The notes beneath the pieces were generated by a model that worked only from the letters and a program-made list of their open reading frames with translations, had not been told where the DNA came from and searched no databases. DNA of 64,000 nucleotides. Origin: Loktanella sp. DSM 29012 (GTDB taxonomy: Bacteria > Pseudomonadota > Alphaproteobacteria > Rhodobacterales > Rhodobacteraceae). Location of the stretch: assembly GCF_900110705.1 (NCBI RefSeq), contig NZ_FOEJ01000001.1, positions 751,501-815,500 on the forward strand, written 5' to 3'. How positions within the stretch are numbered: the stretch's first letter is position 1; the number at the start of each line of letters is the position of its first letter. Made by a program: the position numbers and the translations under genes. Positions 20,622-36,935 of this stretch are shown here, piece by piece.

Positions 20622-23600
20622 TCAGGCGGGGGCCGGCACGGCCCCGTCGGCGGCCTTCTTGTCGGCGATCCGCTCCTTGCGCAGGTAGGTGTGATACAGG
20701 ACCGGGACACCCACCAGCGTCAGGACCGAGGCAAAGCCGAGACCGCCCATGATCGTCACGGACATCGCCGCAAAGAAGCTGTCGGACAGCAGCGGCACCA
20801 TACCCAGGATCGTGGTTGCCGCGGCCAGAACCACGGGCCGCAGACGGCTGACACTGGCCGTGACGATGGCCTCATGTTGCGGCAGGCCTTCGGCCTTTTG
20901 CGCATCGATCTCCTCGACCAGAACGATGGCGTTCTTGATCAACATGCCCGACAGCGACAGCAGGCCCAGCAACGCGGTAAAGCTGAAGGGAATGTTCGAC
21001 AACAGCAGGCCGATCGCCACACCGTTGATCGCCATGGGCACGATGGTCCAGATGACCGCCGTCTGGCGTAACTTGCCGAACAACAGGATGGTGATCAGCA
21101 ACATCGTCCCAAAGGAAAGCGGCATCTGCCGACCCAGCGATTCCTGTGCCTGGCCTGCGCTCTCGAATTCGCCGCCCCATTCCATTTCATAGCCAGCCGG
21201 AACCTCGATTGCCTCGATCAGCGGACGCACCTCGGCGAACACGGTGGGCGGCGTCAGACCTTCGATGACGTTGCCTTGCACCGAAATGGTCTGGACGCGG
21301 TTTCGCCGTTCGATCACGGGGTTTTCCGGCACGACGGTGAAACCGTCCACCACCTGGCTTAGTGGCAGATAGCCTCCGATGGCCTGACTGTAGACAATCT
21401 GGTCCAGCAGCTGGCTGTCGCGTTCGGCCTCGTCGCGGGGTTTGCGCACGATAATGTCGATCAGCCGGTCGCGTTCGCGGTAGGTGCCGGCAGGAATGCC
21501 GTTGGTCGCAAGGGCAATTGCAGTCGCCACGTCGCTGCGGGTGATGCCTGCCGCCTGTGCACGATCCTCTGCATAGATCGGGCGGGTTGTGATTTCGACC
21601 TCGCGCCAGTCGTTGTGTTCGGTGTGCAGCAAGTCGGTGCTGTTGCGCAGGATCGCCTCTGCCTCCGCGGCCAGTTCACGCAGTACGGCAGGGTCGGGAC
21701 CAGAAAAGCGTGCCTCGATATCCGAACCGGTCGCGGGACCAAAGATGATGCGTTTCGACTGAAGCTCTGCCCAGGGCAGCGCTTCGATCACGAATTGATC
21801 CAGCTCTGTGCGCAGGGCGGGGATCGCCTCGGGGGATGTGGCACGGATCACCAGCTGGGCATAGGAACTGTCGGCGCGGGCAGGGCTGTAGGTCAGCACG
21901 TAGCGCGACAGGCCTTGCCCGACTGTTGCGGTCACAGCTTCGACGTCGTCTCGGGCCAGCAGCCAGTCCTCGACCACGGCGATATCGGCGGACGATTCCT
22001 CGATGGCGGTGCCCTGTGCGGCTTTGTATTCAAGGTAAAAGATGGGTGTCGTCGCCGCAGGAAAGAACTGCTGTTTGACTTGGCCAAAGGCCATGATGCA
22101 GGCGACAGTCGTGCCCAGCAGGCCTGCGATCACCAGCCAGCGCAATTTCAGTGCCCAGCGGACCAGTTTGCCATAGGTGCGGAACACCGGGCCGTTGTAA
22201 CCGGAATCGTCTGCATCCAGCCCGCCGACCTTGAACAGGTAGTGACCCAGCAGCGGGGTGATCGTCACGCCGACGATCCACGACAGCAGCAGCGAAATGC
22301 CGATCACCGCAAACAGCGAGAACATGAATTCGCCGGACGCATCGGGCGACAGGCCGATCCCGGCAAAGGCCATGATCCCGATGATCGTGGCCCCCAGCAG
22401 CGGGATCTGGGTTTTCTGCGTGGCAATATCCGCTGCATCACGCGAATTCTTGCCCTTGCGCATTTCCTGCTGCATGCCTTCGGCCACCACGATGGCGTTG
22501 TCGACCAGCATCCCCATCGCGATGATCAGAGCACCCAGGCTGATGCGTTCGACCTTGACGTCGAACAGATACATGAAAAAGAACGTCGACAGCACGGTCA
22601 GCAGCAGCGAGGCACCGACGACGACCGCCGCGCGGGGGCCCATGAAAACAGCCAGCACCACGATCACGACCGCGACCGACATGGCAAGCGACACCAGAAA
22701 GTTGCTGTTGGCCTCGTCCACAACCCGGTGTTGTTCGTAGATCGGGCTGACTTCGACGCCGACAGGCAGCAGCGTTTCCAGCACGGCCAGCTCTGCCTCG
22801 ACCCGGCGACCGACATCGACGATATTTTCAGATACCAGGCCCGACACGCCCAATGTGAACACCTCCTGACCATTGTGACGCAGGATGTGATCGGGATTTT
22901 CAATGCGCGCGCGTTTGACGTCCGCGATGTCCAGCAGGTTCAGGACCTCGCCGCCGAAACCAAAGGTCAGACCGCTGATTTCGCGCACGCTGTCCTCTGC
23001 CGATGGTCCCTGGATTTGCAGATTCGCACTGCCATTGTTGACGAAACCGGTCGGGTTGATGGCGGTGGAATCGCTGATCGCGCCGATGATGACCGCCGGA
23101 TCGACCCCCAGCTGCGACAGTGTCTGCGATGACGGTTCGACGAAAATCGCCTCTTGTGGCAGGCCCTGCAGCTGGACATTGGCCACGCCGTCCACGGTCA
23201 GCAGTTCGCGGCGCATGAAACTGGCGATGTCCCAGATTTCCGAATCGCTATAGCCGGGGGCCGCTACGGCATACAGGATGCCATAAACATCACCGAAATC
23301 GTCGTTCACGGTTGATGGCAGCGCATCCGCTGGCAGGGATGCACGTGCATCTGACACACGGTCACGCAGGTCGTCCCAGACCTGCGGCAGTGTATCGCCA
23401 TCGTATTGATCCTCGACCTCGACCTCGATGACCGACATGCCCTGGGTGTTGCGCGATGTGACGTTCTTGACCTCGTCCATCTGCTGGATCGCGGCCTCTA
23501 GCACCTCTGATACTTCGGTGGCCACCTCGGCCGAGGTCGCACCTGGGTAGGGCGTGATGACAAGCGCGTTCTTAAGCGTAAAGGTCGGGTCTTCCAGCTT

Positions 23601-23699
23601 GCCGACGGACATATAGCCGAACAATCCGCCAAAAATGGCGAACAGGATGAACATCCAGGTGTAGAGGGGAGATTCGATCGAAAAGCGGGCGATTTTCAT
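20622..23699 (-). CDS. RND-family efflux permease
   Basis: A 1025-aa proton-driven exporter of the resistance-nodulation-division superfamily. It has the usual two-fold plan: a first transmembrane helix near residues 12-32, a large periplasmic loop, membrane helices about 335-540, a second periplasmic loop and helices 850-1015. Visible blocks include YPGATSAEVATEVSEVLE, GMLVDNAIVVAEGMQQE (helix 4 region) and SGMLIKNAIVLVEEID. It most resembles the subgroup with SVGKLEDPTFTLKNALV at the N-terminus, often annotated only as RND transporter. The adaptor gene is 4 bp upstream. No outer-membrane channel gene is nearby. Substrate unknown. Confidence 0.93.
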   Translation of the reverse strand: MKIARFSIESPLYTWMFILFAIFGGLFGYMSVGKLEDPTFTLKNALVITPYPGATSAEVATEVSEVLEAAIQQMDEVKNVTSRNTQGMSVIEVEVEDQYDGDTLPQVWDDLRDRVSDARASLPADALPSTVNDDFGDVYGILYAVAAPGYSDSEIWDIASFMRRELLTVDGVANVQLQGLPQEAIFVEPSSQTLSQLGVDPAVIIGAISDSTAINPTGFVNNGSANLQIQGPSAEDSVREISGLTFGFGGEVLNLLDIADVKRARIENPDHILRHNGQEVFTLGVSGLVSENIVDVGRRVEAELAVLETLLPVGVEVSPIYEQHRVVDEANSNFLVSLAMSVAVVIVVLAVFMGPRAAVVVGASLLLTVLSTFFFMYLFDVKVERISLGALIIAMGMLVDNAIVVAEGMQQEMRKGKNSRDAADIATQKTQIPLLGATIIGIMAFAGIGLSPDASGEFMFSLFAVIGISLLLSWIVGVTITPLLGHYLFKVGGLDADDSGYNGPVFRTYGKLVRWALKLRWLVIAGLLGTTVACIMAFGQVKQQFFPAATTPIFYLEYKAAQGTAIEESSADIAVVEDWLLARDDVEAVTATVGQGLSRYVLTYSPARADSSYAQLVIRATSPEAIPALRTELDQFVIEALPWAELQSKRIIFGPATGSDIEARFSGPDPAVLRELAAEAEAILRNSTDLLHTEHNDWREVEITTRPIYAEDRAQAAGITRSDVATAIALATNGIPAGTYRERDRLIDIIVRKPRDEAERDSQLLDQIVYSQAIGGYLPLSQVVDGFTVVPENPVIERRNRVQTISVQGNVIEGLTPPTVFAEVRPLIEAIEVPAGYEMEWGGEFESAGQAQESLGRQMPLSFGTMLLITILLFGKLRQTAVIWTIVPMAINGVAIGLLLSNIPFSFTALLGLLSLSGMLIKNAIVLVEEIDAQKAEGLPQHEAIVTASVSRLRPVVLAAATTILGMVPLLSDSFFAAMSVTIMGGLGFASVLTLVGVPVLYHTYLRKERIADKKAADGAVPAPA

Positions 23700-23703
23700 G
23701 GGT

Positions 23704-24780
23704 CTATTCCACCGTCAGGCCAATGAACGGACGCACGGTTTCGCCTTCGGTCAGCATTTGCAGGCCGGCGGCCACGATCTGCGTGTCGCCTGCGATGCCG
23801 CTGACCAGCAGGTCCGTCCCGTTCGGAGAACCGACCTCGACCGGTTGCCATGCCACGGTTCCGTCGGTGCCACCGGGGTTGGGCGTATAGACCAGAACGC
23901 GGGGTGATCCATTGTCATAGGACACCGCGGATGGCGGCAGCATCACCAGACTTTCGTCACCCAATGGCAGGGTCGCTGTCACGGTGATGGATGCGCCGGG
24001 AATGATCGCCGGAGGCACGTCGTCCTGCGTCAGGGCCAATGTGACCCGGTAGCTTTGCCCGATGTTCTGGGTTTCGGCGTTGAATTCGCGCAACTCCAGC
24101 GGGACGGGGGCGGCAAACAGCGGAGACGACCCGGTAAATTTCAGATCGCTGCCCTCGTCGACATTCTGAAACAGGCGTTCCGGCACGTCGATTTCGACGC
24201 GGACTTCTGACATGTCATGCAGGCGGACTATGGGCTGACCGGGGCTGACGATGGCGAAATTCGGCGTCAGACGCGACGCGACCAATGCCTCGAACGGGGC
24301 GTGAAGGCTGGCGTCCGCCAGCGCATCCTCGGCCTCGCGCAGGGCGACGGCAGCCAGATCACGGGCCGTTTGTGCGTCCTCGGCCTGTGTGGCCGACACG
24401 GCGTTCGTCGCGGCCAGGGTTTCAGCGCGGGACAGGGCGCGTTCGGCCTGCGTCAGGTTGATCTGTGCCCGTTCCACCGCCCGTTCAAATGGCCCCACGT
24501 CCAATGCTGCAATCTGCACGTCCTTTTGCAGGAACTGGCCCTCTTGGGCGTCGAACATCGTCATCTGGCCGCCGACCTCGAATGACAGATCGACCGTTTC
24601 CAACGCAACGACCTGACCAAAGAATGTCCTGTCGGTCAGCACGCTTTCGCCAGCGGCACGGATCAGTTTCACAGCCCTCATCGGGGCGGGATCACCCGAC
24701 GGTGTCAGCGCCTCGGCCTCTTGGGCGGACAGTGGTGCAGCGGCAGCAAGAGCAAAAAGGACCGTGGCAATGCGAAGCAT
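23704..24780 (-). CDS. RND periplasmic adaptor (membrane fusion protein)
   Basis: A 358-aa HlyD/AcrA-like adaptor with a signal peptide (first about 20 residues, ending PLSAQ). It has a biotinyl-lipoyl half-motif (VDLSFEVGGQMTMFDAQEGQFLQKDVQIAALD), a helical hairpin (about residues 90-150, LTQAERALSRAETLA), and the second lipoyl half (HAPFEALVASRL). It links the inner-membrane RND pump to an outer-membrane channel. It is first in the operon; a palindromic candidate operator lies just upstream, and the TetR-type gene diverges from it. Confidence 0.92.
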   Translation of the reverse strand: MLRIATVLFALAAAAPLSAQEAEALTPSGDPAPMRAVKLIRAAGESVLTDRTFFGQVVALETVDLSFEVGGQMTMFDAQEGQFLQKDVQIAALDVGPFERAVERAQINLTQAERALSRAETLAATNAVSATQAEDAQTARDLAAVALREAEDALADASLHAPFEALVASRLTPNFAIVSPGQPIVRLHDMSEVRVEIDVPERLFQNVDEGSDLKFTGSSPLFAAPVPLELREFNAETQNIGQSYRVTLALTQDDVPPAIIPGASITVTATLPLGDESLVMLPPSAVSYDNGSPRVLVYTPNPGGTDGTVAWQPVEVGSPNGTDLLVSGIAGDTQIVAAGLQMLTEGETVRPFIGLTVE

Positions 24781-25542: not shown

Positions 25543-25701
25543 TCACATGCGGCGCCAGGCCAGATAGGCCGCCAGCGCGATGATACCGCCCATCAGCGAC
25601 AGTGGAATTTCCATCCCATGCGGATGGATGTGTGCGCCGCCATGGGCCAGCGCGGGCGAGGCCGCCAAAATCGCTGCGATCGTCAGTGACAGGTATTTCA
25701 T
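25543..25701 (-). CDS. 52-aa histidine-containing secreted/membrane microprotein
   Basis: A 52-aa product that is easily missed because of its size. A signal-peptide-like start (MKYLSLTIAAILAASPALA) ends with an ALA cleavage site, followed by HGGAHIHPHGME with four histidines (20, 24, 26, 28), then a hydrophobic segment (about 32-49) and a basic end WRRM. Mature, it would be a 33-aa peptide anchored in the inner membrane with its histidines in the periplasm. Its ATG overlaps the stop of the 152-aa histidine-rich gene (ATGA), which argues strongly that it is translated. It is the last gene of the guanidine operon. A role in metal (nickel) capture is inference. Confidence 0.75.
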   Translation of the reverse strand: MKYLSLTIAAILAASPALAHGGAHIHPHGMEIPLSLMGGIIALAAYLAWRRM

Positions 25702-26156
25702 GCGTCTATTTCCTTTTTGCGTTGGGATAGAAAATCGCGGATGTCCAAGACGGATTTTTCATCCATCGAGACATAGATCAAGGACATGTTGGTGCGTTCT
25801 GTCACCATCTGGCCGGGAAAGGGCAGATAGCTCAGCTCGCGTGATCCGAATGACGGTGATGCTGTCCCGACCTGCCATTCGGTTTTCAACTCCACGTCGA
25901 TCAGTTTCAGCGCCTTGGGTCCTGCGGCGGCGGGGCGTTCAAACGGCACGCCGGCCAGCTTGAGGTAGGCCGACTTGTCACGCGCCTGCACGTAGCCGTC
26001 GATGAACTGCGCGGTCAGGACCTGCAGATCTGCCGCCGCGTCATGTTCATGCATGTGGCTGTGCAGGTGATCGCCGTCCGCGTGGTTGTGACCATGGCCA
26101 TGAGGCGCATGATCATGGTGGTGATGATGCCCGTCCGGGCCGTGATCATGTGGCAT
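25698..26156 (-). CDS. Histidine-rich protein, candidate metallochaperone of the guanidine operon
   Basis: A 152-aa cytoplasmic protein with no signal peptide. Its first 38 residues hold 17 histidines, including a run of five (positions 10-14) and many HxH pairs, followed by a folded-looking domain of about 110 residues that I do not recognise (LTAQFIDGYVQARDKSAYLKLAG, then MSLIYVSMDEKSVLDIRDFL). Histidine-rich tails of this kind are seen in nickel and zinc chaperones such as HypB, UreE and CooJ. The ATG at 26156 overlaps the end of the ureohydrolase gene by 11 bp, and a longer frame upstream is only its shadow. Since guanidine hydrolase needs nickel, a nickel-delivery role is the best guess. 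Confidence 0.8.
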   Translation of the reverse strand: MPHDHGPDGHHHHHDHAPHGHGHNHADGDHLHSHMHEHDAAADLQVLTAQFIDGYVQARDKSAYLKLAGVPFERPAAAGPKALKLIDVELKTEWQVGTASPSFGSRELSYLPFPGQMVTERTNMSLIYVSMDEKSVLDIRDFLSQRKKEIDA

Positions 26157-27411
26157 TGGACCACCTCTTGCCGCTGAATTCGCCGTGCGGGATGGAAACG
26201 GGCTTGTCGATATGCTGTTTGTGCGCGCCCATCTTGCCGCTGGCGACCATGGACCCCAGCACATCCACGATCACGCGTGTGCCCAGCAGGGCCGTGATGT
26301 CCGAGGTGTCATAGGGGGGCGACACCTCGACCAGTTCCATTCCGCAGATGCCCTCTGCGGCGATGCCGGATACCAGCGCCAGCGCCTCGCGCGGCAGGAA
26401 ACCGCCCGGTTCGGGCCAGCCGGTGCCGGGGACGAAACCGCAGTCGATGCTGTCGATGTCGAACGACAGATAGACCATGTCGACCCCGTCCCAGGCCATG
26501 TCCAGCGCCATCTCAAGGGTCTTGTCGATCCCCATCTTTTCGACGTCGCCCATGGTGATGATGTTGGTCTCGCGTTCACGCGCGACCTTGACCGCCTCGC
26601 GCGGGACCTGCCAACCACCGATGCCGATCTGCACAAGGTTCTTGGCCGATACATTGGGCATGTTGGTCGCGTGGAACCACGGCGTGGTATGCATCCGTTC
26701 GTCCAGGTCCTTTTCCTGAATGTCGGCGTGGCGGTCGAAATGCACGATGCCGATCTTCTTGGACGTGCATTCCGCGATGCCGCGCAGACAAGGGTAGCCG
26801 ATGGAATGGTCACCGCCGATCATGATGGGCAGCGAGCCGGAGCTGAACACATGGCTGACGCCACGGCTGATCTGGTCAAAGGATTTTTCGATATTAGCGG
26901 GGATCGTGAATACGTCGCCGGCATCGCACAGCGTCATCTGTTCGCGCAGATCAACGCCCATCTCGTAATTATACGGCGTATACAGCGCCGAGATCTTGCG
27001 CAGCGCCTGCGGGCCGAACCGCGTGCCGGGACGGTAGGTTGTGCCGCCGTCGAACGGGATGCCCAGGATCGTGGCGTCGTAATTGGCCACCTCCAGCACA
27101 TCCTCTGCATAGGGGGCCTTGAGAAAGGTGTTGATCCCGGCGAAATGCGGCAGTTCTCCGCGGGCAAATGTCGGGATGGATTTGTCCTCGATCGCGTCGG
27201 CCCCGGTCAGACCCATGCGCAGCGCCCAGCGGCGTTCCTCGTCGGCGCGGCCGGTGGGAATGTCGCCCTCTTTCTGCATGGCCTTCCAGCCCTGTAGCTG
27301 GGTCAGGTCCGGATGGTGCTGGCGTTTGCCCTGCGCGTTGATCCGCTGGGCCAGATCGCGCGGGTGGTGCGACCTGCTGCGCCTGTTCTGGGGGCCTGTA
27401 TCAGGAAACAT
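26146..27411 (-). CDS. gdmH: Ureohydrolase, probable Ni-dependent guanidine hydrolase
   Basis: A 421-aa member of the arginase/agmatinase superfamily. All metal ligands of the fold are present: H202 (GGDHS), D226-H228-D230 (FDRHAD) and D318-D320 (SFDIDSID). The middle motif reads DRHAD, not the DAHxD usual in agmatinases. There is an N-terminal extension of about 90-100 residues before the fold. These points, the stretch FVPGTGWPEPGGFLPREAL and a guanidine-I riboswitch at the head of the operon fit the guanidine hydrolase GdmH described from cyanobacteria, which makes urea and ammonium from guanidine. A plain annotation would be agmatinase family protein. The start overlaps the ATPase gene by 11 bp; later starts such as M45 are possible. 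Confidence 0.8.
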   Translation of the reverse strand: MFPDTGPQNRRSRSHHPRDLAQRINAQGKRQHHPDLTQLQGWKAMQKEGDIPTGRADEERRWALRMGLTGADAIEDKSIPTFARGELPHFAGINTFLKAPYAEDVLEVANYDATILGIPFDGGTTYRPGTRFGPQALRKISALYTPYNYEMGVDLREQMTLCDAGDVFTIPANIEKSFDQISRGVSHVFSSGSLPIMIGGDHSIGYPCLRGIAECTSKKIGIVHFDRHADIQEKDLDERMHTTPWFHATNMPNVSAKNLVQIGIGGWQVPREAVKVARERETNIITMGDVEKMGIDKTLEMALDMAWDGVDMVYLSFDIDSIDCGFVPGTGWPEPGGFLPREALALVSGIAAEGICGMELVEVSPPYDTSDITALLGTRVIVDVLGSMVASGKMGAHKQHIDKPVSIPHGEFSGKRWSNAT

Positions 27412-28159
27412 GGGTGTCCTCCGTTTGGATTTGGTGGGGAATGCCGCCGTTGCGGGCGTCAAAGTCGTAGGTGATCGTGGCCCCGAACAGACCCGGATCA
27501 TGCGGGTCCCAGCGGGGCTTATCAAAGACCAGCACACGGTCGCCCAGCTTGAACCCCTCTTCGAGGTCGTGGGTCACCATGAACACGGTCATGTTGGTCA
27601 GCGCGCGCAGTTCCATCAGAAACGCATGCATTTGCAGGCGCGTGCCGGGGTCCAGTGCGCCGAATGGTTCGTCCAGCAGCAACACGCGCGGTTTCGCTGT
27701 CATCGCCTGTCCGATGGCCAGTCGCTGCTGCATTCCGCCCGACAACGATGCGGGATATTGGTCGGCCACGTGGTTCAACCCGATCCGCACCAGCATCTCG
27801 TCCGCGTCCTGCATCGCCTGACGTCGTGCCGCACCGCGCAGGAAACCAAACCGCGTCTTGAACGCCGTGCCGGCCATCAGGTTGTCGCGCACGGTCAGGT
27901 GCGGGAACACGGAATAGCGCTGGAACACCACGCCGCGCTCTACGTTCGGCTCGACCGCAGGCGGGCCGCCATCAATGCTGATCTCGCCGCGTGTGGGGCG
28001 TTCCTGCGCCAACAAGAGCCGCAGAAAGGTGGATTTGCCACAGCCAGAGGCACCCACGATCGAAATGAATTCGCCCTGATCGACCTCGACGTTGACCCGT
28101 TCGATGATCGACCGGTCGCCGTAGGCCTGCCAAATGTTGCGGACGCTGACGAAACTCAT
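27401..28159 (-). CDS. ABC transporter ATPase, NitT/TauT type (guanidine operon)
   Basis: A 252-aa ATP-binding subunit: Walker A GASGCGKST (about residues 36-44), Q-loop in VVFQRYSVFPHLTV, signature LSGGMQQRLAIGQAM, Walker B RVLLLDEPFGALD and switch histidine in MVTHDLEEG. It belongs to the nitrate/taurine-type importers. The start at 28159 overlaps the permease stop as ATGA; a much longer open frame upstream only reads through the permease. Close relatives are annotated as urea ABC transporter components, because they often sit near urea/guanidine carboxylase genes. Confidence 0.93.
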   Translation of the reverse strand: MSFVSVRNIWQAYGDRSIIERVNVEVDQGEFISIVGASGCGKSTFLRLLLAQERPTRGEISIDGGPPAVEPNVERGVVFQRYSVFPHLTVRDNLMAGTAFKTRFGFLRGAARRQAMQDADEMLVRIGLNHVADQYPASLSGGMQQRLAIGQAMTAKPRVLLLDEPFGALDPGTRLQMHAFLMELRALTNMTVFMVTHDLEEGFKLGDRVLVFDKPRWDPHDPGLFGATITYDFDARNGGIPHQIQTEDTHVS

Positions 28160-28968
28160 AGCCCGGCCTCCAGCCACGGGAACGCCCGGCGGGACAGCGT
28201 TTTCAGCGCCCAGTCGATGAGAAACGCCAGCAGCGTGATCCAGATGACGTAGGTCAGGATGATGTCCATCGCGAGGTAGCGGCGCACCAGGAAAATCCGG
28301 TAGCCAAGTCCCACATCCGACGCCACAGCCTCGGCCGCGATCAGGAACAGCCAGGCTGACCCCAGCGACAGGCGCACATTTGCAATCAGGCGCGGCAGGA
28401 TTTGCGGCAGTGTCACGCGCAGGGCGATGACCAGTGACGATGCACCGATGGTCTGCGCCTTGATCAGTTGTTCGGTGGGGATGTCCAGCACGCGCTGCGA
28501 CAGGTCGCGGATCATGAACGGGGTGATGCCCACGATGATCAGCACGACCTTTGACAGCTCGCCCAGTCCGAACACGATGAACAGGATCGGCAGCAGCGCC
28601 AGCGGCGGCACCATCGACACCACGGAGACAAAGCTGGAAAAGCCGGACCGGACCAGCGGCAGCAGTCCGATGGCCATGCCCGCAAGCAGGGAGATAGCGG
28701 CCGAAATGCCGACACCCAGCAGCAGGCGCTGCAATGAGGCCCATGTATCCTGCCACAACAGGATGTCACCACTGCGGCGGTCGGCCTCTGTGAATAGCCG
28801 GATCGCGGTGTCCAGGATCGTGGCGGGTGCGGGCAACAGTTTGTCATTCGGGTTGGCCGTCAGCCGGATGTCCGAACTGATCGCATAGGCAATCATCACC
28901 GCGATGAACGGCAGCGCGGCGAGCATGATACCGCTGCGGCGTGATGGAATACGGTTGATCAGTCGCAT
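28156..28968 (-). CDS. ABC transporter permease, NitT/TauT type (guanidine operon)
   Basis: A 270-aa inner-membrane protein with about six membrane segments. The cytoplasmic EAA-like coupling loop reads QTIGASSLVIALRVTLPQILPRLIANVRLSLG, as in SsuC/TauC/NrtB permeases. The ATG at 28968 is preceded by GGAGG. It is coupled to the ATPase gene by ATGA overlap and separated from the binding-protein gene by 75 bp that hold a hairpin. It is predicted to form the channel for the ligand bound by the upstream periplasmic protein, most likely guanidine or guanidinium. Confidence 0.93.
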   Translation of the reverse strand: MRLINRIPSRRSGIMLAALPFIAVMIAYAISSDIRLTANPNDKLLPAPATILDTAIRLFTEADRRSGDILLWQDTWASLQRLLLGVGISAAISLLAGMAIGLLPLVRSGFSSFVSVVSMVPPLALLPILFIVFGLGELSKVVLIIVGITPFMIRDLSQRVLDIPTEQLIKAQTIGASSLVIALRVTLPQILPRLIANVRLSLGSAWLFLIAAEAVASDVGLGYRIFLVRRYLAMDIILTYVIWITLLAFLIDWALKTLSRRAFPWLEAGL

Positions 28969-29043: not shown

Positions 29044-30111
29044 TTACAGCGCGCCGTCGGCGGCCATCTGCATGTAGGTGGTGTCGAACCGGAACATGAC
29101 GTTATCCGCGTCGCCCGTCACCACGTCACCCGGATAGGCGATGCCCACGAAATCGGCGCTGGGCGCGTTCACACCCAGAATGCCCTTGTCGAACAGGAAT
29201 TCCGCAACCGTCGTCATCGTGGTCGGCAGATCGGGCGACGCGGCCTGTGCGACGGCATCGGCAGGATCATAGAACATCTCTGTCACGGCCAGCTGCGCCT
29301 GATACCCGGCCAGATCGGTGCCCGCTGCCTCTGCCATGGCGGTCAACGCCTCTTCGTCACCAGCGGCCATCAGGCCCATGACCTCGTACCAGGCACCGAC
29401 CACGGCCTTGCCGAAATCAGGGTTGTCGGCCAGCGTCTGCGTGTTCACCACCATCAGGTCCAGGATTTCACCGGGGATTTGCGAACTGTCGAACAGCACA
29501 TTCGCATCCGGGTTCGACGCCGTGATTTCGGACACCAGCGGGTTCCATGTGACCACGGCGCTGACGTCGTCGGTCGCATAGGCCGCGATCATATCCGCGT
29601 CAGATGTGTTGATGACACCGTCCAGATCGGATTCCGACAGGCCGACCGTGTCCAGCCCCCGCGCCAGCAGGTAATGCGAAACCGACAGTTCCACCAGATT
29701 GACCGGCTTGCCTGCCAGATCCTGCAGCGTGCCTTCGCCCTTCAGGATGACCGCGTCGTTGCCGTTGGAATAGTCACCGATGATCAGGGCCGTTGTATCG
29801 ACGCCACCGCCTGCTGGGATCGACAGCGTGTCCATGTTGGTGGCGCTGACACCATCAAAGGCACCGGCGGTATATTGGTTGATGGATTCGACGTAGTCGT
29901 TGATCTGCACGATCTCGACCGTGATGCCGTATTTTTCGGCCCACTTGTCCATGATCCCGCTGTCGGACAGATAGCCCCAGGGCATCCAGCCCGCGTAGAT
30001 CGACCATGCCAGTTTGAAATCTGTTTTTTCCTGAGCCAGTGCAGGCTGCGCCATCGCAGTCGCCAGTCCGGCCGAGAGCGCCGCAGCGGATAGAATGTTC
30101 TTGAATTTCAT
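29044..30111 (-). CDS. ABC transporter substrate-binding protein of the guanidine operon
   Basis: A 355-aa periplasmic binding protein with a signal peptide (cleavage after QPALA, about residue 26). It resembles the subgroup annotated as putative urea ABC transporter binding protein (urea-carboxylase-associated), with FKLAWSIYAGWMPWGYL after the signal, GVSATNMDTLSIPAGGGVDTTALIIGDYSNGNDAV, and DVSAVVTWNPLV. In other bacteria these transporters go with guanidine carboxylase or guanidine hydrolase genes. Here the leader carries a guanidine-I riboswitch, so guanidine is the likely ligand. The ATG at 30111 has a GGGGAAAG ribosome-binding stretch; the frame continues upstream only through the riboswitch region. 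Confidence 0.9.
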   Translation of the reverse strand: MKFKNILSAAALSAGLATAMAQPALAQEKTDFKLAWSIYAGWMPWGYLSDSGIMDKWAEKYGITVEIVQINDYVESINQYTAGAFDGVSATNMDTLSIPAGGGVDTTALIIGDYSNGNDAVILKGEGTLQDLAGKPVNLVELSVSHYLLARGLDTVGLSESDLDGVINTSDADMIAAYATDDVSAVVTWNPLVSEITASNPDANVLFDSSQIPGEILDLMVVNTQTLADNPDFGKAVVGAWYEVMGLMAAGDEEALTAMAEAAGTDLAGYQAQLAVTEMFYDPADAVAQAASPDLPTTMTTVAEFLFDKGILGVNAPSADFVGIAYPGDVVTGDADNVMFRFDTTYMQMAADGAL

Positions 30112-30155
30112 GACTTTCCCCGTTGTGCGTCCCGCCTGTTGTCCAGATGGATTTC

Positions 30156-30190
30156 GCCGCGCTGGCGGAACAAGAGACAATGAGCGCGGC
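30156..30190 (-). promoter_or_regulatory. Possible expression-platform hairpin of the guanidine riboswitch
   Basis: A perfect 8-bp inverted repeat GCCGCGCT / AGCGCGGC with a 19-base loop lies directly downstream of the riboswitch aptamer and 44 bases before the start codon. It could be the switching element, but it lacks a T-run and does not cover the ribosome-binding site, so the mechanism is open (Rho-dependent or translational control are options). Confidence 0.4.
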
Positions 30191-30197
30191 CAAAACC

Positions 30198-30315
30198 TGC
30201 GCAGTAGCCTCCCGGGATTTTGCCCCGCCGTGTGCCGCCCCGGAATTTGCCGGCGCGGTAGCTCTTCTTGGACCAGGCTTGTCGCGGGCGACAACGGAAC
30301 CCTAAGTGCTCTGCC
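30198..30315 (-). ncRNA. Guanidine-I (ykkC) riboswitch
   Basis: The leader of the binding-protein gene carries, in the right order, the conserved blocks of the guanidine-I aptamer. AGGGTTCCG lies at 30303-30295, followed by a perfect TTGTCG/CGACAA hairpin. Next comes TGGTCCAAGA at 30275-30266, close to the consensus UGGUCCGAGAG. Last are ACGGCGGGG at 30231-30223 and AAAATCCCGGGAGG at 30221-30208. The outer P1 stem can form from GAGCACTTAG and CTACTGCGC. Guanidine-I riboswitches turn on genes for guanidine export, carboxylation or hydrolysis when guanidine binds. About 85 bases separate the aptamer from the start codon. The call rests on motif recognition by eye; a covariance-model search would settle it. 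Confidence 0.9.
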
Positions 30316-30573
30316 ATCCCAGTAGCGGGCAGGGGATGGCGCTGTGCAACGCAGGCCGGGTCAGAAATGCGTGGTGCGCCCGCGTTGCCCGAAAATTGGG
30401 CGGTGTTCGCGGGCTGGCGCATCGAAATTCAGCGCCCAAGCGATACCGGACAGGTGGAATCGCCGCGCGCGGCAGGGCGCCGATGGCGCTTGTTTGATTA
30501 GACCCGGCGCAGAATCTGCCGTATACACGCGCCCAACACAGAGCCCCGCAGGGGCCGAACACAGAGCAGGCAC
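30316..30573. other. Divergent intergenic region between guanidine operon and tolQ
   Basis: About 260 bp between the riboswitch and tolQ. It must contain both divergent promoters, but no convincing sigma-70 pair stands out. A small hairpin GCCCC-GCA-GGGGC lies at about 30542-30554, close to the tolQ start. Open frames here look like chance. Confidence 0.4.
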
Positions 30574-31248
30574 ATGGAACAGACACACGATTTCACGATG
30601 TGGAGCATGTTCGCGGACGCGACCATCCTCGTACAACTCGTCATGCTGGCGTTGGTCGCAGCCTCGGTCTGGTGCTGGGCGATCATCGTGGACAAGACGT
30701 TGCAATATCGCCGTGCCCGGCGCGAATCCGATGCCTTTGACGCGATGTTCTGGTCGGGCGAACCGCTGGATCAATTGTTCGACGACATTGGTGCAGCACC
30801 TCAGGGGTCGGCTGAAACCATCTTTGCCGCGGGCATGACCGAATGGCGGCGCAGCCACAAACAGGACGGCGATCTGATCGCGGGCGCGCAGGCGCGGATC
30901 GACCGCAGCATGGATGTCGCCATCGCCAAGGAAGCGGCCAAACTGCAAAAGGGCCTGCCCGTGCTGGCGACAACCGGATCGACGGCCCCGTTCGTGGGCC
31001 TGTTCGGCACAGTGTTCGGAATCATGAATTCATTCATCCAGATCGCGGAATCCCAGAACACCAACCTTGCGGTCGTGGCCCCCGGTATCGCAGAGGCGCT
31101 CTTGGCCACGGGTCTTGGCCTGCTCGCGGCCATCCCCGCCGTGATCTACTACAACAAGCTCAGCGCTGATGCCGACCGCATCATCGCCGGGTTCGAGGCC
31201 TTTGCCGACGAATTTTCCACCATCCTCAGCCGCCAGCTGGACAGCTGA
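30574..31248 (+). CDS. tolQ: Tol-Pal system inner-membrane protein TolQ
   Basis: A 224-aa MotA/TolQ/ExbB-family proton-channel subunit with three membrane helices: about residues 18-38 (ILVQLVMLALVAASVWCW), and two in the C-terminal half around GSTAPFVGLFGTVFGIMNSF and EALLATGLGLLAAIPAVIYYNKL. With TolR it powers TolA to draw in the outer membrane at division. It heads tolQRAB-pal-cpoB. The ybgC thioesterase gene that often precedes tolQ is not present here. Confidence 0.95.
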   Translation: MEQTHDFTMWSMFADATILVQLVMLALVAASVWCWAIIVDKTLQYRRARRESDAFDAMFWSGEPLDQLFDDIGAAPQGSAETIFAAGMTEWRRSHKQDGDLIAGAQARIDRSMDVAIAKEAAKLQKGLPVLATTGSTAPFVGLFGTVFGIMNSFIQIAESQNTNLAVVAPGIAEALLATGLGLLAAIPAVIYYNKLSADADRIIAGFEAFADEFSTILSRQLDS

Positions 31249-31249
31249 C

Positions 31250-31726
31250 ATGGGGGCCGGTGTTCAGAAATCCGACGGAGGGGGCGGCGGGCGACGCGGG
31301 CGTCGCCGCAGCCGCGCCCAGCCGATGGCGGAAATCAACATCACTCCATTCGTGGACGTGATGCTCGTCTTGCTCATCATCTTCATGGTGGCCGCACCGC
31401 TGATGACCGTGGGCGTGCCGGTGGACTTGCCTGAAACGGCGGCCAATGCACTGCCCAGCGACGACGAGGAACCGCTGACCGTCACCATCGACGCATCCGG
31501 TGCGTTGTCGATCCAGAATACGCCTGTGGATCAGGCTGATCTGATCGCGCGCCTGCAGGGGATTGCGTCCGAACGGGCCAGCGACCGGATCTTTCTGCGG
31601 GCCGATGGGGCCAACGACTGGAACCGTGTCGCACAGATCATGGGTGCGCTGAATGCGGCTGGGTTCAACAACATCGGTCTGGTGACGGATATCGGCGGGC
31701 CGGACCTGATGGGCACGGACGGCTGA
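31250..31726 (+). CDS. tolR: Tol-Pal system protein TolR
   Basis: A 158-aa ExbD/TolR-family protein: a basic cytoplasmic start (GRRGRRRSR), the motif MAEINITPFVDVMLVLLIIFMVAAP with the membrane aspartate essential for proton coupling (in FVDVMLVLL), and a periplasmic domain. The ATG at 31250 lies one base after the tolQ stop; a longer frame from 31169 merely overlaps tolQ. Confidence 0.95.
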   Translation: MGAGVQKSDGGGGGRRGRRRSRAQPMAEINITPFVDVMLVLLIIFMVAAPLMTVGVPVDLPETAANALPSDDEEPLTVTIDASGALSIQNTPVDQADLIARLQGIASERASDRIFLRADGANDWNRVAQIMGALNAAGFNNIGLVTDIGGPDLMGTDG

Positions 31727-31730
31727 TCCC

Positions 31731-32876
31731 ATGCAATGGACGCCCGGCAGCACGGTTTCGGCGGTGGGACACACGGCTCTCTTGATCTGGTTGGTCGGGG
31801 GCTGGGGGTTTCAGGCTGACCCCATGCCGTTCGAGGTGTCGGACGTGTCCATCGTGACCTCCGAGGAATATGCGGCCATCGTCAGCGCCACCACGCCGAA
31901 CCCCAGTGACGTGGCCCCGGACGCGCCCGTGGCACCGCCTGTCGAACAGACTCCGGATGCGCCGACCCCGGATGAGGTGCCGCCGCCGCCGCCGCCGCCG
32001 CCGCCGCCCGAACCACCCGTGGCCGAGGCCCCGCCGCCACCTGCAACCGATGCGCTGCCAGTGCCACCCGAAACGCAGGCACCCGTCGCACCCAGCCCGG
32101 TCCAGGACGAGGTGGTCGCCGCACCGAACCTGAACGACGCACCACGCGCGATCCCGCGCCCGTCTACCCGTGTCATGGCCCAGCCCGTTGCCCCGCCGCC
32201 GCCTGATGCGACCCCGGATGAGGTCGTGCGCCAGCAGGCCGCCCCCGATGCCGCCCCCGATGCCCCCGTGGTCGAAGAAGCACAGGAAGAAACCGCACCC
32301 GAAGAAGCGGTGACCGAAATCGTGACCGAGGCGGAAACACCCACAGGCCGCGTGACCGAGGCACCGCGCCCGCCGCAACGCCCAAATCGCCCGACGCCCG
32401 CGCCCGAGCCCGAGGTTGAGGTCGCCGAGGAAACCCCGGCCCCCGCGCCGGAACTCGAACCCGATCCGGCCCCGCAGACGGACGAGGACGCGATTGCCGC
32501 GGCCCTTGCGGCGGCGGCCGCGGTAACGGCCCCGGAACCGGATCTGGCACCCGGCCCGCCGATGACGCCCTCAGAACAAGAGGGGTTCCGCGTGGCGGTG
32601 AACGCGTGCTGGAACGTCGATCCGGGCTCTCAGGCGGCGATGGTGACGACGACGGTGGCATTTGATCTCGACCAATCTGGCCGCGTGACGGGCGACGTGC
32701 GGCAGGTCGGCGCGATGGGTGGCGACGCCGCCGCCACGGAAATCGCATATCAGGCGGCCCGCCGCGCGATCCTGCGTTGTCAGGGGCAGGACGGCTATGA
32801 TCTGCCTGCGGAAAAATACGACCAGTGGCGGGAGGTGGAAATCACCTTTGACCCGTCCGGAATGCGGTTGCGGTAG
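31731..32876 (+). CDS. tolA: Cell-envelope protein TolA
   Basis: A 381-aa protein with an N-terminal membrane anchor (about residues 10-25), a long proline/alanine/glutamate-rich periplasmic spacer (about 60-275) and a C-terminal TolA/TonB-like domain (from GFRVAVNACWNVDP). The spacer includes a run of nine prolines coded by a GCC/CCG triplet tract near 31980-32007. TolA links the TolQR motor to TolB and Pal. E. coli TolA has a helical alanine/lysine-rich spacer; a proline-rich one is common in alphaproteobacteria. It starts 4 bp after tolR. Confidence 0.9.
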   Translation: MQWTPGSTVSAVGHTALLIWLVGGWGFQADPMPFEVSDVSIVTSEEYAAIVSATTPNPSDVAPDAPVAPPVEQTPDAPTPDEVPPPPPPPPPPEPPVAEAPPPPATDALPVPPETQAPVAPSPVQDEVVAAPNLNDAPRAIPRPSTRVMAQPVAPPPPDATPDEVVRQQAAPDAAPDAPVVEEAQEETAPEEAVTEIVTEAETPTGRVTEAPRPPQRPNRPTPAPEPEVEVAEETPAPAPELEPDPAPQTDEDAIAAALAAAAAVTAPEPDLAPGPPMTPSEQEGFRVAVNACWNVDPGSQAAMVTTTVAFDLDQSGRVTGDVRQVGAMGGDAAATEIAYQAARRAILRCQGQDGYDLPAEKYDQWREVEITFDPSGMRLR

Positions 32877-32945
32877 GCGGGAAATCGCCAAGTCGTGATG
32901 GCGGTGACACGGTTGCGCTGTTAACCTGCGCAGAATGACGCAAAA

Positions 32946-32960
32946 GGGCGGAAAACGCCC
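32946..32960 (+). other. Small hairpin between tolA and tolB
   Basis: GGGCG-GAAAA-CGCCC, a 5-bp stem 19 bases upstream of the tolB start, preceded by AAAA. It may attenuate or stabilise the message. No T-run follows. Confidence 0.3.
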
Positions 32961-32978
32961 GTGGTTGAGGGATTGGGT

Positions 32979-34310
32979 ATGACATTGAAGGCAGTTGTGA
33001 TCGCGGGGCTGATGGCCATTGCATCAATCGGGCAGACCTTGCCGGCGCTGGCGCAGTCCGGCCCGCTGCGGTTGACCATTACCGACGGCGTGATCGAACC
33101 GCTGCCCTTTGCGGTGCCGACATTCACCGCCGAAACACCGGGCGCAGAGGCGCTTGCCGCCGATATCAGCGGCCTGGTCGCGCAGGATCTGACGGGCACG
33201 GGGCTGTTTCGCGAAATCCCCGCTAGCGCCTATATCAGCCAGCTGGGCCCGTTTGGGACGCCACCCGCCTATCCGGACTGGCGCGCGATCAATGCACAGG
33301 CCGTCATCTCAGGTGCTGTTGCGGTGAACGGATCACAGCTGACAGTGAAATTCCGTCTCTATGACATCTTTACCGGGGCCGAACTGGGGCAGGGCCTGCA
33401 ATTCGCCGGCACGACCCAGGGCTGGCGCCGCATGGCGCACAAGGTCGCCGATGCTGCCTATTCCCGCATCACGGGCGAGTCCGGCTATTTCGACAGCCGC
33501 GTCGTTTTCGTGAGCGAGGCAGGCCCCAAGGACAACCGCCTGAAACGTCTGGCGATCATGGATTACGACGGGGCGAACGTGCAGTTTCTGACCGACAGTT
33601 CGTCGCTGGTGCTGGCCCCCCGGTTTTCGCCCAACGGCGACCGTGTGCTTTATACCAGCTACGAATCGGGCTTTCCCCGGATCAACATTCTCGACGTGGG
33701 CTCTGTTTCGCAGCGACAGTTGCCGACGGCCCCCGGCGAAATGGCATTCAGCCCCCGGTTTTCGCGTGACGGCAGCCGGGTGATCTACAGCCTTGCGAAT
33801 GGCGGCAACACCGATCTGTACATCGGTGACATCGGCAGCGGGGCCTCGACCCGTCTGACCAGCGCACCGTCGATCGAAACCGCCCCCAGCTTCAGCCCCG
33901 ACGGCAGCCAGATCGTGTTCGAGAGCGACCGGTCCGGTGGCAGCCAACTGTACATCATGTCCGCAAACGGTGGCGAGCCGCGCCGCATCAGCTTTGGCGA
34001 CGGGCGCTATGGCACACCGGTCTGGTCGCCGCGTGGTGACCTGGTGGCCTTTACCAAGCAGAACGCGGGCCGGTTCCACATTGGCGTGATGCGCACCGAC
34101 GGATCAGAGGAACGACTGCTGACCTCCAGTTTCCTGGACGAGGGGCCGACATGGTCCCCCAATGGTCGCGTGTTGATGTTCACCCGCGAAACACAGGGCG
34201 CATCAGGCACCAGCCAGCTGTATTCGGTAGATATTTCCGGGCGAAACCTGAAACCCGTACCGTTGCAGGGCGGGGCGTCAGACCCAGCCTGGGGCCCGCT
34301 GCAACCGTGA
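32979..34310 (+). CDS. tolB: Tol-Pal system beta-propeller protein TolB
   Basis: A 443-aa periplasmic protein with a signal peptide (ending about ALAQ), an N-terminal alpha/beta domain ([28 protein letters not shown]) and a C-terminal six-bladed propeller with repeated FSPDGS / WSPNGR blocks ([46 protein letters not shown] and others). It binds Pal and the TolA C-terminus. The ATG at 32979 gives the clean signal peptide; a GTG at 32961 adds six residues and is less likely. Confidence 0.96.
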
Positions 34311-34375
34311 TTCCCAAATACGCTGTCGCGTGATAGTCTGCGACCAAAGAGCGGTTCAACAAGGACATTGAAACA

Positions 34376-34894
34376 ATGCACATCTTAACAAAAGTGGCCC
34401 TGATCGGCCTTGCGCTGGCGACATCTGCCTGCACGCGCCCGGACCGTTTTGGCGGGATGGACCCGCTGACCGGCAGCGGCGTGGACGCCAATGCCGCAGG
34501 CGTCGCGACTGGGGCCTCTGACCCGCGCAGCCCCGAATTCTTTCAGCAGACCATCGGGGACCGCGTGCTGTTCGTCGTCGATTCCAGCACATTGACCCCG
34601 CAGGGCATTGCCACGCTGGACGGGCAGGCCGGCTGGTTGCAGACCAACGCCGACTACCTCGCCATCATCGAAGGCCACGCCGACGAACAGGGCACACGCG
34701 AATACAACCTGGCACTAGGCGCGCGCCGCGCCAACGCCGTGCGGGAATACCTGATCTCGCGCGGGATTTCGGCCAACCGCCTGCGGACCGTCAGCTATGG
34801 CAAGGAACGCCCGGTCGAGGTCTGCTCGAACGAGGCATGCTATGCCCAGAACCGCCGTGCGGTGACGGTCATCTCGATCGGACAGCTCAGCTGA
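34376..34894 (+). CDS. pal: Peptidoglycan-associated lipoprotein Pal
   Basis: A 172-aa outer-membrane lipoprotein. The signal peptide ends in a lipobox (TSAC, Cys19); after a short linker comes an OmpA-like peptidoglycan-binding domain with GHADEQGTREYNLALGARRANAVREYL. It tethers the outer membrane to the wall and binds TolB. AAGGA about 10 bases upstream marks the start. Its stop overlaps the next start (TGATG). Confidence 0.96.
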   Translation: MHILTKVALIGLALATSACTRPDRFGGMDPLTGSGVDANAAGVATGASDPRSPEFFQQTIGDRVLFVVDSSTLTPQGIATLDGQAGWLQTNADYLAIIEGHADEQGTREYNLALGARRANAVREYLISRGISANRLRTVSYGKERPVEVCSNEACYAQNRRAVTVISIGQLS

Positions 34895-35700
34895 TGCGGG
34901 TGCTGGCGGTTGTCCTCGCACTCGCCGCGGGTCCGGCGCTGGCGCAGGACGCGACCCTTGCCGACATCCGGCAGCAGTTGACCGTGCTTTACGGTGACAT
35001 TGAGGCGCTGCGCGGTGAATTGTCGGCCAGTGGTGCGCTGTCGACCGGCGTGGCCGGCAGCACCCCGCTTGATCGTCTGAACGCGATCGAGGCCGAGTTG
35101 CAGCGCCTCACCTCCAAGACCGAAGAGCTGGAGTTCCGGGTCAACCGGATCACCGTGGACGGCACCAACCGTGTCGGTGATCTGGAATTCCGCCTGTGCG
35201 AACTCGAACCGACCTGCGATATCGCGCTGCTGGGCGATACACCGTCACTGGGCGGCGTGGATTCGGCGGCTAATATCCCGGTGCCTGCCGCACCTGTGGC
35301 GCAGGCCCCCGACCTTGCCCTGGGCGAACAGCAGGATTTCGAGGCCGCACAACAGGCGCTGGCCGCGGGTGATTTCCAGATTGCTGTTGATCGGCTGGCG
35401 GCCTTTGGCAACACCTATCCCGGTTCACCGCTCGAGGTGCAGGCCAACATCGCACTGGGTCAGGCGCAGGCAGGTCTGGGTCAGAATGGCGAGGCGGCAC
35501 GCGCCTATCTGGCCGCGTTTTCTGCCGAACCAGAGGGTCCCTTTGCACCCGAGGCGCTGTTCCGGCTGGGGCGCGCGCTTGGTGACGTGGGACAGATCCC
35601 CGATGCCTGCGTCACGCTTGCAGAGGTCGGTGTGCGGTTCCCCAACAGCACCTATGTCGCCGAAGCGAACAGCGCGCGCGGCCTGCTGGGATGCACCTGA
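34894..35700 (+). CDS. cpoB: Tol-Pal coordinator CpoB (YbgF)
   Basis: A 268-aa periplasmic protein with a signal peptide (VLALAAGPALAQ), an N-terminal coiled coil (about residues 25-95) and C-terminal tetratricopeptide repeats (DFEAAQQALAAGDFQIAVDRL; ALFRLGRALGDVGQIPDACVTL). In E. coli it coordinates Tol with peptidoglycan synthesis. The ATG at 34894 overlaps the pal stop; a longer frame from 34837 is a shadow of pal. It overlaps the start of tilS by 10 bp. Confidence 0.92.
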   Translation: MRVLAVVLALAAGPALAQDATLADIRQQLTVLYGDIEALRGELSASGALSTGVAGSTPLDRLNAIEAELQRLTSKTEELEFRVNRITVDGTNRVGDLEFRLCELEPTCDIALLGDTPSLGGVDSAANIPVPAAPVAQAPDLALGEQQDFEAAQQALAAGDFQIAVDRLAAFGNTYPGSPLEVQANIALGQAQAGLGQNGEAARAYLAAFSAEPEGPFAPEALFRLGRALGDVGQIPDACVTLAEVGVRFPNSTYVAEANSARGLLGCT

Positions 35701-36935
35701 CAGGTCTGCCTGACCGCTTTGCCGGTGAAATGGGGCATTTGCTGGGACCTGAATTCCCGGATGCCATCGGCGTTGCCGTGTCAGGCGGTGGCGACAGCAT
35801 GGCGCTGTTGCACCTGGCCGCTGGTTGGGCGCGGATTTTCGGCGTGTCGATGTCGGTCGTCACGGTCGATCACGGCCTGCGCGACGCCAGCGCATCAGAG
35901 GCCGCGATGGTTGCCGATGAATGCGCGACGCTTGGCGTTGCGCACGACACCTTGCAGTGGAAATGGGATGGGAACGGCAACCTTCAGGATGCGGCGCGCA
36001 ATGGCCGCCGGGCGCTGATCGGCGCTTGGGCGCAGGGTCGCCCGGTCCTGTTGGGGCATACCCGCGACGATCAGGCCGAAACGCTGCTGATGCGGCTCGC
36101 ACGTGGATCAGGCGTCGACGGTCTTGCGGCGATGGCGGGTTTGCGCGGCGCCGGGGGCTGGCAGATCGTGCGTCCGATGCTTCACTTGGGGCGTGACGAA
36201 CTGCGCCACTATCTCAAGGTTTTGAACATTCCCTTTGTCGATGATCCGACCAACGACGATGCGACCTACGCGCGGGTTCGCATGCGACACCTCATCGGGC
36301 AAGAGGGGCTGGACACGGTGCGCTTGGCCAATACGGCGCAGGCCATGGCCCGTGCGCGCGTGGCATTGGCCGCGCGGGCACATGACGCCGCAACCGCAAT
36401 GATGCGGCCAACGACGCAGGGTTGCATTGCACTGAACCGCGACGCGCTGACCCGGATCGAGGCTGAAACGCAGTTGCGGATCCTGGCCGGTGCAATTGGT
36501 GCGGTTGCGGGGGCCGTCTATCGGCCAAGGCTCTCTGCCCTGACACAGACACTGGACAGGGTGCTGGCTGGCGGCACGACTACACTTCAGGGCGCGATCC
36601 TCGTGCCCAAAGGTGCCCATCTGTTCATCGCGCGAGAGTATCAGGCCGTCGCGGATCATCAGGTCCGTGCACACAGCGGTGATCTGTGGGACGGGCGCTG
36701 GATGCCGGTCGGGCAGGGCCTGACAGGTGCTGTGCTGCGTGCGCTGGGGGCGGACGGTTTGCAGCAAATCACGGTGCGGCCTGAGGACGCGGCACCCCGT
36801 GCCTGCCTGCTGGGCCTGCCGTCGATCTGGGCAGGTGATCGCCTTATCGCTTGTTCTGCCTTGGATTTCGGCACGGATGCCGGGGTCAAAGACCAGATAC
36901 GCGGAAGTTTTCCGCAATCCCTCCTTGTGCATTGA
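35691..36935 (+). CDS. tilS: tRNA(Ile)-lysidine synthetase
   Basis: A 414-aa PP-loop enzyme that converts C34 of the tRNA-Ile CAU anticodon to lysidine. The ATP PP-loop is SGGGDSMAL (S31-S36), followed by VDHGLR, GHTRDDQAETLLMRLARGSGVDGLAAM and the conserved DPTNDDATYARVRMRH. The C-terminal half is less conserved, as is usual. It overlaps cpoB and is followed by ftsH after an 82-bp gap, a conserved alphaproteobacterial order. Confidence 0.95.
   Translation: MHLTGLPDRFAGEMGHLLGPEFPDAIGVAVSGGGDSMALLHLAAGWARIFGVSMSVVTVDHGLRDASASEAAMVADECATLGVAHDTLQWKWDGNGNLQDAARNGRRALIGAWAQGRPVLLGHTRDDQAETLLMRLARGSGVDGLAAMAGLRGAGGWQIVRPMLHLGRDELRHYLKVLNIPFVDDPTNDDATYARVRMRHLIGQEGLDTVRLANTAQAMARARVALAARAHDAATAMMRPTTQGCIALNRDALTRIEAETQLRILAGAIGAVAGAVYRPRLSALTQTLDRVLAGGTTTLQGAILVPKGAHLFIAREYQAVADHQVRAHSGDLWDGRWMPVGQGLTGAVLRALGADGLQQITVRPEDAAPRACLLGLPSIWAGDRLIACSALDFGTDAGVKDQIRGSFPQSLLVH

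Follow-up and report, generated by a model that had tools for sequence, protein, structure and literature searches.

On its minus strand, a stretch of 64,000 nucleotides from Loktanella sp. DSM 29012 (the window) carries a Guanidine-I riboswitch and, behind it, an operon for guanidine assimilation that also encodes a small protein with a histidine-rich tail, here called ACC. The riboswitch and the operon are real and are of a kind already known. Less ordinary, and worth testing, is how closely this His-tailed protein, as yet unnamed, goes with guanidinase in genomes most of which have neither HypA nor HypB, the nickel-loading proteins of a related operon. The features concerned are as follows.

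30207..30316, minus strand: Guanidine-I riboswitch aptamer, RF00442 (cmscan)
29044..30111, minus strand: ABC importer substrate-binding protein, 355 aa, probably guanidine-binding (TIGR03427, 515 bits, cut-off 333.9)
28156..28968, minus strand: ABC importer permease (BPD), 270 aa (PF00528, 70 bits, cut-off 26.4)
27401..28159, minus strand: ABC importer ATPase, 252 aa (PF00005, 114 bits, cut-off 25)
26146..27411, minus strand: guanidinase (GdmH-type ureohydrolase), 421 aa (Arginase family, 269.5 bits)
25698..26156, minus strand: ACC, 152 aa, His-rich N-terminal tail and core, directly after the guanidinase
25543..25701, minus strand: SML, 52 aa, overlapping the ACC stop codon
24864..25505, opposite strand to the operon: TetR-type regulator, beyond SML

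From the permease onward, neighbouring genes share a few bases at their junctions. The first-pass annotation of this DNA had read the region as a riboswitch of this class ahead of an ABC importer and ureohydrolase operon, and the genes are as it described, with two more, ACC and SML, that it did not mention. Its forecast that annotation would otherwise call such an operon urea transport plus agmatinase is borne out by a related plasmid, where the genes are annotated as a putative urea ABC transporter substrate-binding protein, permease subunit and ATP-binding protein, and where an 'agmatinase family protein' and two hypothetical proteins complete the annotated operon. (The model TIGR03427 itself is named 'putative urea ABC transporter substrate-binding protein'.) Of the named genomes in which such loci turned up, Loktanella sp. 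3ANDIMAR09 is the closest, with 99% identity over ACC, in a ranking from an ACC relative search that may omit the window's own record. Genes divergent from the riboswitch occupy 30574-36935 of the window and, from their sequences, resemble a Tol-Pal cluster and then tilS; beyond the other end of the operon, 20622-24780 resembles what we take to be an RND efflux pair.

The identity of the aptamer had been proposed from four conserved blocks, AGGGTTCCG, TGGTCCAAGA, ACGGCGGGG and AAAATCCCGGGAGG, and a perfect internal hairpin. All four blocks are found on the minus strand in the order claimed, as is the hairpin (6 bp, TTGTCG/CGACAA), and the covariance model search that had been suggested as a check, here extended to the complete window (64 kb) and to 4227 Rfam families, gives a significant match that places the RNA in RF00442, the ykkC or Guanidine-I family (minus strand, 30316-30207; 78.7 bits against a gathering cut-off of 63, E 2.5e-12). 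The alignment spans the full model (1-107 of 107). RF00442 is the sole family above its gathering score in the window, and its match there is the one match in the whole genome. When 30100-30450 was searched leniently (E up to 10), no rival family came near its cut-off, the sole additional match being isrK with 12.7 bits against a cut-off of 50. The span of 30198-30315 originally given to the riboswitch overshoots the 3′ end of the aptamer match by 9 bases. Membership of the family supports guanidine as the ligand, and the direction of control usual for the family would have guanidine turn the operon on.

The best solved relatives of the 421-aa enzyme are 7esr/7oi1 (E 2.6e-161) and 9fek (E 1.7e-158), which we take to be the Synechocystis and N. 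inopinata guanidinases, though the PDB label on both is agmatinase. The next solved relative is 3nio, at E 3.7e-52. In N. inopinata, specificity for guanidine is attributed to Thr105, His222, Trp313 and Glu344 (PMC11410670), and in the alignment all four hallmark residues are present in the window's enzyme, as T125, H241, W332 and E362 (residue numbers were transferred manually, allowing for a shift of 2 in chain 9fek). An alignment-based survey of 131 loci, several of them from the same genomes, replaced a looser ORF-pattern check of 37 loci; in it the four residues are complete at 126 loci, and the remaining five comprise two alignments that are cut, a partial one, a locus lacking any hit, and L195, where Thr replaces Trp. 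The residues and the closest solved relatives together support the reading of this 'agmatinase' as a guanidinase, and the proposed activity would be the nickel-dependent cleavage of guanidine. Urease alpha is encoded elsewhere in the genome, so that the urea formed can be used.

Two other readings of ligand and substrate are to be weighed against guanidine. Subtype 2 ykkC RNAs retain the same fold (PMC6031431), and the aptamer might be such a variant with ppGpp or PRPP as its ligand. However, the match to the Guanidine-I model is full length and above cut-off with no family competing, and the adjoining genes are for guanidine uptake and breakdown, not for amino acid or purine synthesis, which makes this reading scarcely credible. 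The ureohydrolase could instead act on another guanidino compound, such as agmatine or methylguanidine, with the riboswitch sensing that compound or a by-product, and the agmatinase-like models NF002564 and TIGR01230 do match the enzyme, at scores below their cut-offs. Against this, all four hallmark residues are in place, the 7esr and 9fek chains score 530-540 bits where the next solved enzyme has 181, and the Guanidine-I class, according to PMC11410670, does not recognise metabolites that carry a guanidino group. A substrate other than guanidine is very improbable in our judgement.

Similar operons are known. The Synechocystis one (sll1077/gdmH, hypA, hypB and an ABC importer; PMC8390497, PMC12186494) has in common with that of the window the riboswitch, an ABC importer and a guanidinase, but the window operon is without HypA and HypB genes, and ACC and SML stand in their place. 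The comammox Nitrospira operon has riboswitch and guanidinase and, likewise, no nearby nickel chaperones (PMC11410670); its importer is an APC permease, whereas that of the window operon is an ABC importer. The Synechocystis guanidinase is encoded together with two nickel-loading proteins (PMC12186494), and activation of metformin hydrolase required HypA and HypB (PMC11399263). For the comammox guanidinase, nickel loading is described as unclear because such chaperones were not found (PMC11410670).

The association of ACC with guanidinase was followed at several taxonomic depths. In a survey of 248 genomes of the family, with ACC counted at E<=0.001 and guanidinase at E<=1e-100, ACC is present in 38 and guanidinase in 36, all 36 of these being shared (Fisher p 2e-41). 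ACC adjoins the guanidinase on the same strand in 35 of the 36, and in the remaining one, G098, the two genes lie at contig ends. The two family genomes with ACC only are G124, where it is weak and missed by the ACC profile, and G159, where the operon is decayed. A sample of 385 genomes of the class, searched for guanidinase-like sequences at E<=1e-80, gave 12 hits besides the window's own genome, and ACC adjoins ten of them. The other two, G325 and G310, have no ACC in the stretch fetched and have diverged guanidinases, 49-57% identical; the G310 contig ends inside the guanidinase gene so that its neighbour cannot be judged, and the one that is not cut by a contig end has Thr for Trp332. All seven guanidinase hits in a sample of 398 genomes of the phylum fall within the same class, and the four that had not been seen previously all carry ACC. 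Plasmid pNGR234b of S. fredii NGR234 also has it.

Working in the opposite direction, 105 relatives were found when named genomes were searched with ACC, and 80 loci were kept. Every one of these 80 has a guanidinase match (partial in a few, e.g. L098), 78 have the substrate-binding protein and 77 have the aptamer, 75 by motif and L036 and L097 by cmscan, the L097 aptamer being full length. At L044, L098 and L103 the aptamer was not found. Fifteen distant loci were fetched and ten scanned, with the aptamer present in eight.

Several genomes depart from this pattern. L198 (G159:C334, 6026-6595) has an aptamer at 6486-6595 and, directly after it, broken ACC fragments at 6205-6364; guanidinase was not found in its genome at E<=1e-100, and the locus resembles the scar of an operon deletion. 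G159 is one of 11 of the 248 family genomes with a Guanidine-I hit and no guanidinase at E<=1e-100, and four of those eleven hits (G077, G051, G228 and G039) are below the gathering cut-off. Three family genomes have two Guanidine-I matches: G127 (C1:659399-659516 and 673619-673734), G065 and G239. L036, which resembles the G127 locus, lacks the usual binding protein. G008, G194 and G083 (L211-L213) have guanidinase and ACC, with Guanidine-I absent both from the genome scan and from the stretch fetched; in G008 and G194 the binding protein is only about 42% identical, so that regulation or ligand may differ there.

ACC itself belongs to no named family in the collections searched. NCBIfam and PHROGs gave no match to it, and Pfam gave a single one, RlmM_FDX at 14.3 bits and E 0.058, which is below the cut-off of 22.2. 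The histidine-rich nickel proteins include HypB and UreE with their tails, Hpn and SlyD, and ACC shares with these a terminal tail rich in His and a nickel enzyme as neighbour. It differs from them in that its family is without a Pfam or NCBIfam model: none matched 21 diverse members at E<=0.01, the curated nickel-chaperone models for HypA, HypB and UreE included, and an ACC profile found nothing better than E 0.68 among PDB sequences. Conservation along the protein is seen in alignments A1 and A2. In the 80 relatives the tail before the core has 7-28 histidines, and the core has 0-3, with none in most members and no cysteine in any. The tail is reduced in L187, L188, L189 and L192, and so is not strictly kept. 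An AlphaFold model made from a 44-sequence alignment has a moderate mean pLDDT of 71.8 (41-90 and 121-152 mostly above 80, about 91-120 low and the tail disordered), and Foldseek with this model gave 123 PDB matches at E<=10 and none at E<=0.001, so that the fold offers no hint of function. In the titles and abstracts searched in the open literature a His-tailed guanidinase partner is not named, though the primary paper on guanidinase chaperones may mention it.

Where, then, would the nickel come from? HypA (PF01155) has no match in the window's genome, a search for which the control was that 7 of 14 genomes matched, four of them above cut-off. The best score for HypB (TIGR00073) in that genome is 79.1 bits against a cut-off of 121.2, and as this sub-threshold hit is about 3 kb from urease it is probably UreG. 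Among 46 genomes with guanidinase and ACC, HypB is above cut-off in 11, all of which also have HypA, and both are absent above cut-off in 34. HypA is above cut-off in 16 of 48 further ACC genomes and, among the 12 class genomes searched, in three of the ten that bear ACC; those three all have reduced tails, a post hoc observation that is not used as evidence. The association of ACC with guanidinase, taken with the 34 of 46 genomes, makes ACC a candidate nickel loader in Alphaproteobacteria, and its composition fits delivery of nickel to the guanidinase as the candidate role.

SML, the last gene, may encode a membrane-anchored metal-binding peptide. Its product has an apparent signal peptide, the motif HGGAHIHPHG and one hydrophobic stretch (signal peptide and stretch judged by eye). 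Similar small ORFs, defined by a length of 40-80 aa, an A-H junction and two or more histidines in the presumed mature N-terminus, follow ACC at 58 of the 80 loci, whereas random positions gave 82 of 4000, and at many loci their start overlaps the ACC stop.

The scheme that we propose is that guanidine inside the cell is bound by the leader's Guanidine-I aptamer, which thereby switches on the six genes, i.e. the three-gene ABC importer, the nickel-dependent guanidinase, ACC and SML. Guanidinase would cleave guanidine to urea and ammonium, and the urease encoded elsewhere would free the remaining nitrogen from urea. Most likely the His-rich tail of ACC captures nickel and the conserved core passes it to the guanidinase, the role that the HypA and HypB homologues have in Synechocystis. 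As a whole, with ACC delivering nickel and the leader element described below taking part in the switching, this explanation has somewhat better than an even chance in our judgement. ACC is a concrete and testable candidate for the nickel supply of an alphaproteobacterial guanidinase that has no HypA or HypB, and its co-expression with guanidinase could yield better-loaded enzyme.

The wider claim, that ACC is a new family of dedicated guanidinase nickel loaders which replaces HypA and HypB across Alphaproteobacteria and is induced by guanidine together with a nickel-gathering SML, is more tentative and falls a little short of even; if true, it would mean a self-contained kit in which a nickel enzyme is made in answer to a substrate sensed by RNA. 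Counting against nickel delivery by ACC, HypA above cut-off is nominally commoner with guanidinase (9 of 36 family guanidinase genomes against 35 of 212 others), a difference that is not significant (Fisher p 0.24). The main competitor has nickel come from urease accessory proteins (UreE, UreG), or the enzyme take it up unaided, with ACC being an assembly factor, a stabiliser or a regulatory subunit and its His tail a metal buffer. Urease and a probable UreG are indeed present in the genome, and the N. inopinata guanidinase, when produced in E. coli with no chaperones, has 0.42 nickel per subunit (PMC11410670). ACC conservation is strongest in the core, which, having no histidine in most members and no cysteine in any of the 80, does not look metal-binding, and the four reduced tails point the same way. 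Set against this, most ACC members seen have retained the His tail, His-motif proteins like SML come after ACC at those 58 loci, and unless metal is involved it is difficult to account for two adjoining His-rich products next to a nickel enzyme. We consider this competitor a serious one but less likely, and delivery of nickel by ACC remains the preferred reading.

A link between tail length and HypA was looked at and rejected. In a first set of 30 family genomes the eight with HypA have a mean of 10.5 histidines and the 22 without it 16.1 (p 0.014); in a second set of 48, the means are 17.4 for the 16 with HypA and 16.2 for the 32 without (p 0.42). At least three of the 48 are also in the first set, as their hit coordinates are identical, so the two sets are not fully independent.

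The likeness of the window's riboswitch to RF00442 riboswitches generally is that it matches the full-length model and lies upstream of genes for guanidine transport and degradation. It differs, with most of the Rhodobacteraceae leaders examined, in adding after the aptamer a conserved hairpin, A-C, and a pairing, B-D. The elements in the window are these.

30183..30197, minus strand: leader element A, forming the 5′ side of hairpin A-C (pairs with C at 13 of its 15 positions)
30164..30171, minus strand: leader element B, GTTCCGCC, loop of hairpin A-C (8-bp pairing with D)
30149..30163, minus strand: leader element C, forming the 3′ side of hairpin A-C (pairs with A)
30129..30136, minus strand: leader element D, GGCGGGAC, partner of B, just 5′ of the ribosome-binding site (pairing counts)
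30118..30121, minus strand: probable Shine-Dalgarno, GGGG, ahead of the ATG at 30111 (sequence)

Alignment A3, made from the window plus 32 leaders out of a dereplicated set of 54 (33 in all; the 22 others, mostly more divergent, are excluded from the pair counts), has a six-pair consensus helix for A-C in which 84.7% of positions are paired and three pairs are changed on both sides; in the window A and C pair in a register shifted from this consensus. The GGGG is nearly invariant or common in the same alignment. The A-C duplex has a z below -2 relative to shuffles in 41 of 73 leaders. For B, a perfect 8-bp partner downstream, with G-U allowed, occurs in 63 of 75 leaders where shuffles lead one to expect 2.4. 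B is invariant in the 33 aligned leaders, and the evidence for B-D that depends on changes therefore comes from leaders outside that alignment. In 22 leaders with a changed B, a perfect partner is still present in 13, against 0.6 expected, with matched changes such as GTTCTGTC/GACAGAAC in L105 and GCTCCGCC/GGCGGAGC in L092; eight of the 13 share the common pair GTTCGGCC/GGTCGGAC, which is farther from the start codon and is maybe a different element. Scored jointly, the two helices have a covariation score reached by 5 of 500 shuffles, and on sliding the partners pairing falls from 93% to 39-45%, statistics that are biased towards the structure, as it was derived from the same sequences.

Since A-C and B-D cross, they would form either a pseudoknot, which is possible, or alternative pairings. 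With B in the loop of hairpin A-C, B would alternatively or also pair with D just ahead of the ribosome-binding site, and the switch probably works through this conserved element downstream of the aptamer, by which expression would be affected. No intrinsic terminator was found on the minus strand in 29900-30600, the two terminator-like matches there (0.4 expected) both being on the plus strand. In the titles and abstracts searched in the open literature an A-C/B-D leader element is not described.

Two other arrangements were tried. That the aptamer hides the ribosome-binding site is unsupported in a simple folding calculation on 73 leaders (p 0.9), in which the mean unpaired probability of the site is 0.373 in the full leader, 0.381 in the platform alone and 0.375 with a shuffled aptamer. 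A helix of the P3 3′ strand with the downstream leader does not exceed shuffles in Rhodobacteraceae, reaching p<=0.05 in one of 75 leaders, a control probe doing so in three of 75, and is not claimed for the window.

Distant leaders differ in look, by eye, from those of Rhodobacteraceae. In a second group made up of eight distant leaders with L036 and L097, the helix with the P3 3′ strand is at p<=0.05 in three of the distant ones. In L187, L209 and L210, which come from more distant Alphaproteobacteria, a TCTCCCG-like segment downstream is able to pair with the P3 3′ strand, and their expression platform is perhaps different from that of Rhodobacteraceae.
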